DNA from: Fimbriimonadaceae bacterium
GTDB lineage: Bacteria; Armatimonadota; Fimbriimonadia; Fimbriimonadales; Fimbriimonadaceae
Direction: 5' to 3'
Assembly: GCA_019187105.1 (NCBI GenBank)
Contig: JABAQM010000001.1
Location: forward strand, 1,302,001-1,366,000
Length of the DNA stretch: 64,000 nt
The notes beneath the pieces were generated by a model, which had not been told where the DNA came from, made no database searches, and saw nothing but the letters and a program-made list of their open reading frames with translations. Shown here piece by piece: positions 20,580 to 31,660 of this stretch. Position 1 is the first letter of the stretch; each line of letters starts with the position of its first letter. The translations under genes were made by a program, and so were the position numbers.

Positions 20580-21667
20580 TGGCCTTTCGCACTGGACGAT
20601 TCGATCGTAACAGCCTTCCGCTTCATCTGAGGCACCTCTGCCCTACTGAGGCGGTACCCGACCTCATGGCGATTGACCTTTCGATCGTTGCCAAGGCAGG
20701 CAAGAAGCTCATTCTGCTGGACGTCGACAACACCCTGCTGCCTTGGCGAAGCAAAGATATCCCCACCGAGACACGGGATTGGCTGGAAGGCGGAAAACAA
20801 CTCGGACTGAAGTTCTGCATCGTCAGCAACACGCGAAACAAGGAGCGGCTCCAACACCTTGCCCATGCATTGGGAATTGACTTCGTGGACGGAAGGTCCA
20901 AACCCAGTCGTCGGATGTTTCGCGCGGCAATGCACCGGCACCACGTCACCCCAGACCAAACGCTGATGGTGGGCGACCAGCTAATGACCGATATTCTGGG
21001 CGCCAACCGAGCGGGCATCGAGGCAATCTGGGTGAAGCCGATGTCGAGCTACGAGTTCGTCGGGACCAAGGTCAACCGTTTCGCGGAAAGCCTCGTCATT
21101 CGAAGGCTCCACGACGCGCTCGAGGCCTCCGATGACGATATGCCGGGCGTACCCCACACCGGCATCCTGCGGAGCAAGATCGCCCGCCAGTTCCTGAAGT
21201 TCTGCATCGTGGGAGGGACTTCGTTCGCGATCGATGCGGGACTCCACAATCTCCTCATGTTCCGAGCAACGATAGGCGGCGAGCTGCTGAGCCAGAAGAT
21301 CGGCGCTGATCTCGCGGCGTCCTTTGGAGGAGTCCGACCGATATCGCCGAGCTTGGCTCACGACACAGCATTCACGGTCTTCAAAGTCGTTTCGGCGTCG
21401 CTGGCGATCTTGAACAGCTTTATTTGGAACCGCTTGTGGACCTTCAACATCCGGGGCAAAGAGGAGCGAATGGCTCAGCTGACGAAGTTCGTTATCGTGA
21501 GCCTCATTGGCCTGCTCCTCAATACGGTCATCGCGAGTGCACTCAACCAGTTGATTCCGGGTGAGGAAGGTCGCCGCTGGCTCATCGCAACCGTCATAGC
21601 TGCCGGAGTCGTCGCGATCTGGAACTTCACCGGTCAGCGGCTCTGGGCCTTCCGGAAGAGCGAATGA
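20579..21667 (+). CDS. YqeG-like HAD phosphatase fused to GtrA-family membrane domain
   Basis: A 362-residue two-domain protein. Residues about 1-170 are a YqeG/HAD-IIIA phosphatase: DVDNTLLPW (48-56) with both nucleophile aspartates, IVSNTRN, Lys108 and MVGDQLMTDILGANRAG. Residues about 203-358 are a GtrA-like domain with four TM segments (QFLKFCIVGGTSFAIDAGL to NFTGQRLWAF). YqeG usually is a lone phosphatidylglycerophosphate phosphatase-like protein and GtrA proteins are thought to flip polyprenyl-linked sugars, so the fusion suggests a lipid-phosphate or lipid-linked sugar substrate. Start overlaps the mltG stop; end overlaps aroE. Confidence 0.85.
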   Translation: MAFRTGRFDRNSLPLHLRHLCPTEAVPDLMAIDLSIVAKAGKKLILLDVDNTLLPWRSKDIPTETRDWLEGGKQLGLKFCIVSNTRNKERLQHLAHALGIDFVDGRSKPSRRMFRAAMHRHHVTPDQTLMVGDQLMTDILGANRAGIEAIWVKPMSSYEFVGTKVNRFAESLVIRRLHDALEASDDDMPGVPHTGILRSKIARQFLKFCIVGGTSFAIDAGLHNLLMFRATIGGELLSQKIGADLAASFGGVRPISPSLAHDTAFTVFKVVSASLAILNSFIWNRLWTFNIRGKEERMAQLTKFVIVSLIGLLLNTVIASALNQLIPGEEGRRWLIATVIAAGVVAIWNFTGQRLWAFRKSE

Positions 21668-22472
21668 CAACCGCCTACCCATGGAAGGAGGCGCCGCAAG
21701 CTGGATATGCCGTCATCGGCGACCCGATCGCCCATTCCTGGTCACCCATCATTCAGACCGCTGCCATGAGACAAGCCGGAATCTCGGGGCGGTATGTCGC
21801 GATTCAGGTCCCGGATCTTGAGTTCGACGCCGCGGTGGTTCGACTAAAGCAGCTTGGATACGAAGGGTTGAACGTGACCGTACCGCTGAAGGAGCGTGCG
21901 TACCGGTATGCCAAGCCCGAACCCGAAGCCCGCAAGTACGGGGTTGCCAATGTCTTGAATCTCATCGAGGGCACCGCGACCAATACCGACGCTGCCGGCT
22001 TCCTGGACAGCTTGCTGGAAGTGGCGGCTGAACCCGGCCATGTTCTCGTTCTTGGCGCAGGTGGAACCGCGCGAGCGCTCGTCCGTGCCCTCAAGGATCA
22101 GGGCTGGAGCGTTTCGATATGGAATCGGACGCAGGAACGGGCAGAGCGCCTGGTCGACGACCTCGGCTTTTCGATGACGATCCCAACCGATCCCGATCCG
22201 CGCGGCTTTGATCTCATTTTAAACACAACATCAGCCTCGCTCGAAGGTGAGAGTCTGCCGATACCGTGGGAACGGGCCGACCCGACGACCCTGGCTTACG
22301 ACGTCGCCTACGGTCCTTCGATGTCGCCATTCTTGGCCGAAGCTCGTAATCACGGCCTTCGCATTCGCGATGGAGTCGAAATGCTGATCGCCCAGGCGGC
22401 ACGATCCTTCGCCTGGTGGCACGGCATCGAGCCCGATCGCGACGTGATGCGGCGCTCGGTGGAGCATCTTCG

Positions 22473-22482
<10 letters not shown>
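21664..22482 (+). CDS. aroE: Shikimate dehydrogenase
   Basis: 272 residues. Substrate residues appear in HSWSPIIQ, NVTVPLKERA (catalytic Lys), NTDAAGF and LIAQAARSFAWW; the NADP-binding loop is VLGAGGTARALV with NRTQERA after it. It reduces 3-dehydroshikimate in the aromatic amino-acid pathway. Overlaps its neighbours on both sides (ATGA with the YqeG-GtrA gene; 10 bases with tsaC). Confidence 0.94.
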
Positions 22483-27838: not shown

Positions 27839-28732
27839 TTAGTTAAGGTCCCAGACGTAAATGGAATCGTCGAGCAGGCGCCCAGCCCAGCCGTCTCTCA
27901 CGTCGCAGCCAGCGGTCAGATAGGAGAGGGCCTTGGTGTTGGCGTGGCCGTCGAGCCAGCCAATGTTAACCTTGCCGCCGTGAAGGCCGTTGACTCCGCC
28001 CCACTCGGTCCAATCGTTCTTGCGACTGGGGTACCAACCATAGGCCTGCGAATAATACTGCGAGCAGCCAGCCGGCTTCGGCGGTCGCATATCGACACCG
28101 TTCTGGTTTAGCACGCAAGGCGAGTCGATCATCCAGATGCCACCGTCCTTGGGCGCGCCGCTGCTGCCGCGATCCCAAGCGCTCGTCACGGTTAGAACCG
28201 TTGCCGCCGGCTCCGCGGCCTGCGCAGCGTTTACGGCTCCGGCCATGAAATCTGCAGGACAATTGAGGCCACCAGGGGCTAGGAACTGCGAGTTGACGCC
28301 ATAGTTCGACTTCATCGCGAAATTGTAGCGACGTTGGGCATCCTTGTAAGCCTTGCCGTTGGGATCGACCGGCACACCGTTGTACTCCCGAGCCTGGGAA
28401 CCGGTACCATCGCCCGGCGAGGCGAGAATCTCCTGGGTCTTGATGTAAGGCACGATCAGGATGTGGAAGTTGGAGTCAGGATTCTGCGGGTTGGCATCAA
28501 AGGTGCCGGTTGTCTGGACGAGGGGGAGGTTGTCGTCGTTGTCGCCCTGGTACATCTGCACCGCGAGGGCGACCTGCTTGGTGTTGGAAATACAAGCCGT
28601 TTTCTTTGCAGCGGCCTTGGCCTGCGCGAAAACGGGAAAAAGAATGGCGGCTAGGATCGCAATAATGGCGATAACCACCAGCAGTTCAATAAGAGTAAAG
28701 GCTTTTTGTTTCAAGATATTTCGGCTCCGCAC
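27839..28732 (-). CDS. Type II secretion/type IV pseudopilin-like protein (DUF1559-like)
   Basis: 297 residues from a GTG start. The short basic leader [11 protein letters not shown] is followed by [20 protein letters not shown], the prepilin methylation/cleavage region, with Ala rather than Gly at position -1. [19 protein letters not shown] and the C-terminal [11 protein letters not shown] (H-X9-DG-like motif) are typical of the large secreted pseudopilin families of Armatimonadota and Planctomycetes. It should be processed by a PilD-type peptidase and may be a surface or pilus-associated protein. Single-gene unit. Confidence 0.9.
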
Positions 28733-29541: not shown

Positions 29542-29982
29542 ATGATTGGAGCGATCACGGCTGTGTTTATGTTTGGTGCGCTTAGCCTTAATGCACCACC
29601 TCCTGTGAACGACGTCGTCGGCAAGTACACCGCCCAGATCTTCGTGGACGAGTCGATCATTCCCGCCAATGCGGGAGACTATAACGAGACCCAATACCGA
29701 AAAGGCATTGCGAGTCTCCGAAAGACCAAAGGAAATCTGGAGCTCCTGCCAGGCGACAAGTTCAAGATGCTCTACTCCGGACCCAGCCTCAAGAAGCCTT
29801 TGGCCTCCTCAGGTACCTGGAGCCGAAAGGATGACCACGTCACTCTCGTCTACACGGGAGCCAAGGGAAAACCCCTGAAGAAGGCGATTACGCTCGTGCT
29901 GCAGATCCGGCAAGAGGGTGTGCTCGTTCACAACAACACCTACGGTCCAAACTCGATGACGGTGTACACGAAGGTCAAGTAG
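29542..29982 (+). CDS. Secreted hypothetical protein (146 aa)
   Basis: 146 residues with a short hydrophobic N-terminus (MIGAITAVFMFGALSLNAPP) that could be a signal peptide. The rest is basic and beta-rich (GKYTAQIFVDESII, GDKFKMLYSGPSLKK, GTWSRKDDHVTLVYTGAKGK), resembling lipocalin-like or META-type small secreted domains. Its 3' end is six bases from the convergent thioredoxin-like gene. No specific family recognised. Confidence 0.7.
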   Translation: MIGAITAVFMFGALSLNAPPPVNDVVGKYTAQIFVDESIIPANAGDYNETQYRKGIASLRKTKGNLELLPGDKFKMLYSGPSLKKPLASSGTWSRKDDHVTLVYTGAKGKPLKKAITLVLQIRQEGVLVHNNTYGPNSMTVYTKVK

Positions 29983-29987
29983 CAGCG

Positions 29988-31127
29988 TTATTCCCCAACC
30001 CGCGGTCGCTGGTACTCGTTCCCGTAGAACACCGCCTGCGGTGTCACGTGGCGCGATAAGGCGTCGGTGGTCAGGTCGAGCGCGAACACCATGGGGAACT
30101 TGCCCTCGGGCGGGTTCGGCGTATAGGTGCTCCTTCCCCAGGCGGTTGCCTCACCGTAGGCCCGGAACTCGGCAAGCTTCCCACCATCCACGCGAATCCG
30201 GCCCTCCAGAGTCGCCTTGAGCCCGCGAGAGCCGTTGGCCGTGGCCATCTCGAACGACCCCTTGAATTCGAACCGCTTGCCACCCCCGCTCGGGGTCAAC
30301 GTGATGGTGGCGGCCCTGACCTCGGCTGCTTGCCAATGGTCGGGCTCGCCGCGGATGTTGTCAACGAGATGGAATCGGGCGATCCGCCACACCAAACTCT
30401 CCGGTATTTTCGCATCCTTGACGATCGCCTCGATTTCGGCGGGATAGATCCAGAGGTGATCTCGGGCGACGTTGGCGTTCGAAGAATCGCAGCCTTCTGG
30501 CAACGGCCGAATGCGGGCATGGACTCGGACCGAAGCCCCGCCTGCGGGCAGCTCGGCATGCCACTTCGAAGCGAGATCGGTCTCCTCGACCTTGGCAGCG
30601 GCGGGCGGGTCGGCGGCGAAGGAGTCCAATCCGCGCTGGATGAAGTTGGTGACCCGTTCCACACTGCGGTTGTTGTTGAACCCGTAGGCCTTGCCATCGG
30701 CGTTCATGACGTAGAAGCCTTGCGAGGTCATTCCTTTGTCGATATCCGGCTTGACCGTCTTTGCGGCTTTCATGAACCATTCGCGCGACGGTGAGCGGCC
30801 GTTCTGCAACTCGTGGGTGTTGCCGGCGTAAGGGATAAATTTCTCGCTGAGCAGCTTGCGGACGCTGGCATCGCTGAAGAGGAACCGACGGTCCCAAAGG
30901 CCGTTGTTTCACGTGCAGCCCATCGGGTGGCCGTTCATGATCCAGAGGAAAATCGGCTTGCCCTGTTCGACGGATGCCTTTCTGGCTTCCATCAGGTTCA
31001 GCCGCCAGGGGATCTGCAGCCAGAGTTCCTCGTCGGCCGTGGGCAGGACCGAGCGCACCTTCTCGTCCAAGCCGGAATCGCCTGAGGCAAATCCCAGGGC
31101 CATCGCGATCGCAATCAGCAACCTCAT
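29988..31127 (-). CDS. Thioredoxin-like secreted protein, candidate selenoprotein (in-frame UGA = Sec73)
   Basis: The frame is continuous from ATG 31127 to the stop at 29988 (379 residues) except for one TGA at 30911-30909. Residues 1-16 form a signal peptide (MRLLIAIAMALGFASG). Residues about 50-130 look thioredoxin-like: KPIFLWIMNGHPMGCT, then UGA, then NNGLWDRRFLFSDASVRKLL. The UGA falls in a C-T-U redox motif. Downstream of the UGA a hairpin with a GU apical loop sits at the position of the E. coli fdhF SECIS. The C-terminal half (about 130-379) is a beta-rich domain of unknown type. If not a selenoprotein, this would be a pseudogene with a single nonsense mutation; the rest of the frame is undamaged. 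Confidence 0.72.
30867..30911 (-). promoter_or_regulatory. Candidate bacterial SECIS element following UGA
   Basis: Counting from the base after the UGA (30911-30909), GGGACC at +14 to +19 pairs with GGUUCC at +23 to +28, leaving loop GUC with G20 and U21; E. coli fdhF has its essential loop GU at the same offset. A lower stem GGC (+7 to +9) with GCC (+40 to +42) is also possible. Pairing was judged by eye, not by a folding program. Confidence 0.6.
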
Positions 31128-31660
31128 CCGATCTATTGTCCAACAGAAATTCCAAAACGCACGCTAGGGGCCCTTGTTCGTTCCTTGGAGAACGAGGTCC
31201 ACAACCGCACACAGCTTCAGACGGTAAGGCGGCTTCTGATACATCGTCCTGCCGGAGCCAAAACCGATCGGGGCGAGGCGTAGCCAACCTGATATCGGTG
31301 GATGACCAGCCGGTTCACGTCCATGTCGCGCTCCAGTTCCCGATACTCGGCTGCGACCAAGGCTGGCAGATCGCCAGAGCCTCGCTCTGCTTGACGCGCA
31401 CAGTGTTGCCTTCTACCTTCGTCGTGGTGTCATCCCAATCCACAGAAGGCCGCCCGCCTGCCCGTCGATGGCGATTCCAATCCCATTGCTGTGGTCGCAT
31501 GCTAAAGCCGTTCGGGCGGTCTTCGAACTGGATACTGGCTCTAGCCCTGTCTGACATGCAACAAACGTGGTTCGTTTTCCGATGACATTGGGGCAAGCTT
31601 TCCTCCTGCCGATTTCTGCCCCCTGAGGCCTTTCTCGGCGTAAACTGGTAGTAGACGCGC
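31128..31660. other. Gene-free stretch upstream of tRNA-Arg, possible decayed coding sequence
   Basis: No intact gene is supported. On the minus strand two adjacent frames look partly protein-like: one with VDWDDTTTKVEGNTVRVKQS around 31390-31450 and another with AAEYRELERDMDVNRLVIHR around 31280-31350, which suggests a frameshifted remnant. The right end holds the promoter of the tRNA gene (TAAACT box near 31641). No transposase or repeat was seen. Confidence 0.3.

Follow-up and report, generated by a model that had tools for sequence, protein, structure and literature searches.

A probable exported thioredoxin-fold selenoprotein in a Fimbriimonadaceae bacterium and its family in at least seven bacterial phyla

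The locus and its in-frame TGA codon

We analyzed a stretch of 64,000 nucleotides (the window; positions below count from its first letter) from the genome of a Fimbriimonadaceae bacterium of the phylum Armatimonadota (assembly GCA_019187105.1, contig JABAQM010000001.1, positions 1,302,001 to 1,366,000). A minus-strand gene in this window carries a single in-frame TGA and, judging from its sequence and that of its relatives, almost certainly encodes a genuine selenoprotein, with selenocysteine (Sec, U) at residue 73. The features of the gene are as follows.

31127..29988, minus: putative selenoprotein gene, 379 codons plus TAA, single in-frame TGA = Sec73 (frame reading and near full-length homologs)
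31074..31127, minus: probable signal peptide, residues 1-18, MRLLIAIAMALGFASGDS (by eye; N-termini of homologs are hydrophobic too)
30594..31073, minus: N-terminal thioredoxin-fold domain, residues 19-178 (AlphaFold2 (AF2) model, Foldseek and a weak match to Pfam Thioredoxin_7)
30909..30917, minus: C71-T72-U73 motif within MNGHPMGCTUNNG, which reads on as LWDRR (translation and homolog alignment)
30881..30895, minus: hairpin resembling a selenocysteine insertion sequence (SECIS), GGGACC (30895-30890), loop GUC (30889-30887), GGUUCC (30886-30881) (inspection and covariation)
29991..30593, minus: C-terminal domain (residues 179-379), rich in beta strands and without a confidently assignable fold (AF2 model of the whole protein)

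In the translated reading the TGA at 30911-30909 is codon 73 and the sole interruption of the frame. The first-pass annotation of this DNA had proposed a selenoprotein on the basis of this lone TGA in an otherwise open frame of 379 codons, placed directly after the Cys-Thr of HPMGCT, and both observations are borne out (HPMGCT-U-NNG); the proposal itself was supported by every check that was run. The signal peptide it had named is probable: by eye the N-terminus MRLLIAIAMALGFASG resembles a short signal peptide. TGA does not appear to be reassigned in the window, where it terminates 15 of the 47 longest non-overlapping open reading frames (ORFs), for example an aroE-like one at 21664-22482; the ORF list is mechanical, and one of its entries (30361-31287) is a wrong-frame ORF lying over the selenoprotein gene. 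This minus-strand ORF of 308 amino acids, which runs over the gene's 5' part in another frame, was ruled out as a true gene because it is the TGA-containing frame that carries the conservation. It could lead gene callers to overlook the selenoprotein.

Selenocysteine machinery in the genome

The genome (3.3 Mb, 99.6% complete) encodes SelA (E 1.7e-112), a tRNA-Sec of 95 nt with anticodon UCA, SelB, recognized by its C-terminal wing domain, and SelD (TIGR00476; L078, C1:1769561-1770469, minus), so that all four components for which a search had been advised are present. The SelD gene has one in-frame TGA itself, and its product is presumably a Sec-containing SelD of a known type. Two further genes of the same genome deserve mention. 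A peroxiredoxin-like PF00578 frame (L003, C1:397944-398309, minus) has a TGA at TPGUTAQ and is likely another selenoprotein of a known kind. The other is a second member of the family described here (L055:922-2031, C1:1077921-1079030), about 33% identical to the window protein, of the MNGHPLGCTUNNGVRGR type, which also has an in-frame TGA and shows a different hairpin register.

Conservation of the TGA column

Homologs of the window protein were found in 35 of 101 related genomes, near full-length ones at 39-56% identity, and in 31 of these genomes the TGA falls at exactly the Sec73 column. Within the window's phylum, 98 of 291 genomes match the family alignment (A1), and nearly all full-length matches have one TGA. 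In order to avoid circularity, the alignment used for a wider species scan (A3) had its Sec position masked. The scan covered 84,980 prokaryotic species, each represented by one genome, using the pattern MNGHP[LMF][GA]C, which leaves the Sec codon outside, and returned 228 confirmed relatives. Eighty of them were inspected, and all 80 have TGA at the Sec column. The relatives belong to Planctomycetota (the majority), Armatimonadota, Latescibacterota, Gemmatimonadota, Chloroflexota, Verrucomicrobiota and Kiritimatiellota, phyla that were taken from record titles, in which labels of metagenome-assembled genomes (MAGs) may be wrong. A search of genome contigs with the unmasked window protein gave no match because its patterns derived from poorly conserved stretches, whereas the Sec-masked alignment worked; a plasmid search gave no match either.

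The TGA column is identical in all Sec-type homologs, even though identity (with TGA translated) drops to about 25%. The check advised at position 73 thus yielded TGA in every Sec-type relative and one Cys homolog; Trp at this column is absent from every homolog inspected. Purifying selection acts on the codons downstream of the TGA just as it does on the upstream ones, with dN/dS (nonsynonymous to synonymous substitution rates) of about 0.03-0.1 in close pairs; downstream values in such pairs are dN 0.02-0.04 against dS 0.26-0.77. We also noted one family member with four TGA and one TAG codons (G117:C93:71441-72540), which is decayed or frameshifted and whose genome has intact-looking copies as well.

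A SECIS-like hairpin downstream of the TGA

The hairpin spans positions +14 to +28 after the UGA and has a stem of six base pairs, one of them G-U, with the loop GUC at +20 to +22; this agrees with the first-pass annotation, which had placed the G and U of the loop at +20 and +21. We counted hairpins in 118 distinct homologs and compared them with synonymous-codon shuffles of the same proteins. A stem of at least 5 bp with its loop at +19 to +23 occurs in 52 of the 118 homologs against 9.9 expected, and one with its loop at +23 to +27 in 31 against 2.7. For single loop positions the counts are 25 of 118 against 4.4 at +20 and 25 of 118 against 1.8 at +24, the latter register being that of the VIAR group. 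The VRGR group, which includes the second copy in the genome studied, apparently has a GGUC-loop hairpin further downstream, as judged by eye. Overall, 94 of 118 homologs have a stable hairpin whose loop contains G, while 31 would be expected.

The pairing also covaries. For the +19/20 register, 82.5% of cells are paired in 40 aligned sequences, compared with 35-49% when the partners are slid, and double changes number 44 compared with 16.6 in shuffles; 10 of these 40 rows were picked after the register had been seen and 30 by clade alone. The inner five pairs in the 30 clade-picked rows are formed in 89% of cases, against 33-53% when slid and 76% (maximum 83%) when shuffled. The bacterial SECIS (bSECIS) model asks for G among the first two nucleotides of the apical loop, a distance of 16-37 nt from the UGA, an upper stem of 4-16 bp and a minimum free energy (MFE) of at most -7.5 (PMC13188914). 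The hairpin of the window gene agrees with this model (G of the loop at +20, stem of 6 bp, -8.1 kcal/mol for the local fold), and so do 112 of the 118 homologs under approximate criteria. An Rfam search of the hairpin region gave no match, as expected because SECIS elements vary. The shuffle test and the covariation support the SECIS-like hairpin. As far as can be told from sequence, the hairpin is real as a feature of the family, and the view that this SECIS, with its loop 20 nt downstream, would direct Sec insertion at UGA73 is strongly supported by the comparison of homologs.

Predicted protein architecture and active site

AF2 was run with the window and scan sequences, with Cys modeled in place of Sec. 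The whole protein gave a confident two-domain model (predicted local distance difference test score, pLDDT, 95.7), and the N-terminal domain alone reached a pLDDT of 95.3 and a predicted template modeling score of 0.90. Foldseek matched the N-terminal domain to 3f9u (E 1.4e-4) and to ERp18 (1sen, E 4.3e-4), with probability 1.0, and also to a DsbH-type domain and DsbD-gamma, which bears out the thioredoxin-like region suggested earlier. Pfam Thioredoxin_7 matches 18 of 56 members, weakly. Nothing in the PDB matched the whole two-domain model at E <= 0.001. The C-terminal domain has no significant Pfam match, and hints of similarity to START/Polyketide_cyc2 were dropped as far below significance.

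In the HMMER alignment to 3f9u, U73 and the nearly invariant Gly76 occupy the positions of the first and second Cys of CxxC, respectively. The AF2 model places Sec73 (model residue 55) directly before the active-site helix 56-65, which is consistent with a predicted thioredoxin topology that has its redox residue at the start of the first active-site helix. The U column is invariant in Sec-type members, and Sec is more conserved than Cys71. An invariant His and Asn lie near the Sec (MNGHP...UNN).

Association with SelA and Sec-less homologs

SelA is encoded in 62 of the 101 related genomes. TGA-type homologs occur in 30 of these 62 genomes and in 1 of the 39 without SelA (Fisher p = 3e-7). Four genomes have Sec-less homologs only (G045 and G034 with Ser, G024 and G005 with Asp), and SelA is absent from three of the four, G045, G034 and G024. 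The only Cys form at the Sec column (L032, genome G070) reads QPSCDDC.

We built a quick FastTree tree with midpoint root and with the Sec column kept in. In this tree the Ser/Asp homologs of the four genomes (L064, L068, L069, L070) form one clade nested in the Sec-bearing family, and the Cys form is a solitary branch within the window's subfamily. Because both nest inside the Sec-bearing family, Sec seems to be the ancestral state of the family as sampled. The Ser/Asp homologs are possibly non-redox relics.

Relation to known families

A thioredoxin-fold bacterial selenoprotein is, as a general kind, already known. The VPGUxxT family (NF041383, NF041382) comprises thioredoxin-like bacterial selenoproteins, as the window family does; the two are distantly similar along about 65 residues of the N-terminal domain, and the best score, that of the Cys homolog (E 4.2e-6, 26.6 bits), is far below the cut-offs of 275 and 350 bits, respectively. 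The VPGU motif is absent from the window family, the window sequence itself does not match the VPGUxxT models, and in 61 genomes of the group nothing scores above the NF041383 cut-off. The Trx7/PDZ family NF041199 is also a Trx_7-type selenoprotein family but has CxxU and a PDZ domain; the best match to it has E 0.001 and 18.1 bits against a 300-bit cut-off. The thioredoxin fold is shared with Thioredoxin_7 (PF13899), Thioredox_DsbH (PF03190), 3f9u, 1sen (ERp18/ERp19), DsbD-gamma and AGR2/3. The sequence matches to such proteins are weak, and the window family differs in having Sec for Cys, Gly where the resolving Cys would be, an inserted GHPxGC ahead of the active site and an added C-terminal domain. 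Eukaryotic SELENOF (Sep15) likewise combines a C-x-U redox motif with a thioredoxin-like fold; the eukaryotic SECIS lies in the 3' untranslated region, and the Pfam scans turned up no Sep15 match.

A 2026 review (PMC13188914) lists 119 selenoprotein families of prokaryotes. None matches at its listed Pfam or NCBIfam cut-off, with weak matches only, in a comparison of 84 rows (28 of alignment A1 and 56 of A6, the window being in both) with NCBIfam and of A1 and A7 with Pfam, excluding families listed by CDD or PANTHER identifiers only. The family was also not found in literature on selenoproteins or selenocysteine in Armatimonadota, Armatimonadetes, Fimbriimonas and Planctomycetes, a result that excludes the supplement of PMC4807772 (planctomycete candidates), Haft and Tolstoy 2025, and Deng et al. 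on groundwater MAGs, in the last two of which the family could be present. Within these limits the family, its C-x-U/UxxG site, the fusion to a second domain and the almost complete lack of Cys homologs appear to be new.

Proposed function and alternative explanations

We propose that UGA73 is decoded as Sec by SelA, SelB, SelD and tRNA-Sec, guided by the bacterial SECIS hairpin, and that the product, because its N-terminus is hydrophobic, would be exported. In a Thioredoxin_7/DsbD-gamma/ERp18-like domain, Sec would cap the N-terminal end of the active-site helix, the site of the first, nucleophilic Cys of CxxC, and the protein would most likely be an extracytoplasmic thiol/selenol oxidoreductase. 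In such an enzyme Sec73 may attack a disulfide or a peroxide/sulfoxide-type substrate. Since the resolving Cys of CxxC is replaced by a nearly invariant Gly (UNNG), Cys71 is the proposed resolver, through a Cys71-Sec73 selenenylsulfide (C-x-U). As a whole, an exported two-domain thioredoxin-fold thiol/selenol oxidoreductase with SECIS-directed Sec73 is the best explanation, with a probability of roughly 0.9.

Several observations weigh against parts of this proposal. The window hairpin is ordinary by energy (-6.2 kcal/mol), and the MFE of positions +1 to +39 has z = -0.5 relative to synonymous-codon shuffles. One genome (G078, a 73% complete MAG) has a TGA homolog while neither SelA nor tRNA-Sec was found over the cut-off, and G005 encodes SelA and tRNA-Sec yet has an Asp homolog (L069). 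Within about 3 kb of the gene, even the commonest partner is shared by at most 7 of 80 loci, so that gene neighborhoods provide no pointer to a substrate. Cys71 is replaced by Thr, Ser and Met in L048, L050 and L054, and an HCU subfamily has its Cys at -1, adjacent to U (FGDPRGHCUQNG), with the Sec column unchanged. The C-x-U step therefore cannot be essential across the family, and because variants that lack Cys71 need another resolving thiol or other chemistry, we consider this step evenly balanced. The HCU subfamily consists of L063, L065, L066, L067 and L072 (FGDPRGHCUQNGVKTR); a remote relative, L071, has NTGRCUGG.

It is possible, as a tentative alternative, that the protein is a real selenoprotein in which Sec73 serves in something other than thiol-disulfide redox, such as a metal-binding, a methyl- or selenium-transfer or a peroxide-reducing site, with Cys71 as an accessory. 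This would fit the dispensability of Cys71, but not of Sec, in some members, the rarity of Cys for Sec, unlike in most Sec/Cys families, the invariant His and Asn, which could be ligands or catalytic residues, and a C-terminal domain that has no assigned fold. It fits less well with a domain that resembles thiol-disulfide oxidoreductases in both sequence and fold, with Sec occupying the place of the nucleophile, and with the canonical-looking CxxC of the lone Cys homolog. It is very unlikely that the UGA specifies an amino acid other than Sec, whether by an altered genetic code or by near-cognate readthrough giving Trp; readthrough would yield an identical open frame, but the homologs inspected have no Trp at the column, TGA ends other genes of the window, the gene tracks the presence of SelA, the SECIS-like hairpins covary, and the Sec machinery of the genome is complete. 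A sequencing error, or a pseudogene truncated at codon 73 by a point nonsense mutation, would also give a single TGA in an open frame, but is already refuted by the recurrence of TGA at one column in independent genomes (the 80 scanned relatives and dozens of Armatimonadota genomes) and by purifying selection downstream of it.

Neighboring genes

Convergent with the selenoprotein gene is a small plus-strand ORF (29542-29982; 146 amino acids) with a hydrophobic N-terminus. A prepilin-type protein, whose N-terminus is typical of type II pseudopilin-like proteins, is encoded at 27839-28732 on the minus strand.

Implications

The gene belongs to a large family of putative redox proteins, probably exported, that appears not to have been described before; it occurs in at least seven bacterial phyla and is not covered by the Pfam and NCBIfam releases searched. 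Bacterial selenoproteins have mostly been found by pairing UGA with Cys in homologs. Because there is almost no Cys form of this family, annotation pipelines likely truncate its members at residue 72. Whether dependence on Sec is almost obligate across this large uncatalogued family, so that loss of the machinery leads to a Ser/Asp relic or to loss of the gene and hardly ever to Cys, stands in our judgment at even odds. If so, Sec would do chemistry in this family that Cys cannot, and the near lack of Cys homologs would explain why the family was missed by searches for Sec/Cys pairs. Related genomes with Sec, Cys, Ser or Asp at one site, with and without the machinery, offer a natural test of Sec retention. 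The family is common in Planctomycetota and Armatimonadota, and it may explain part of the selenium use in these poorly cultured phyla.
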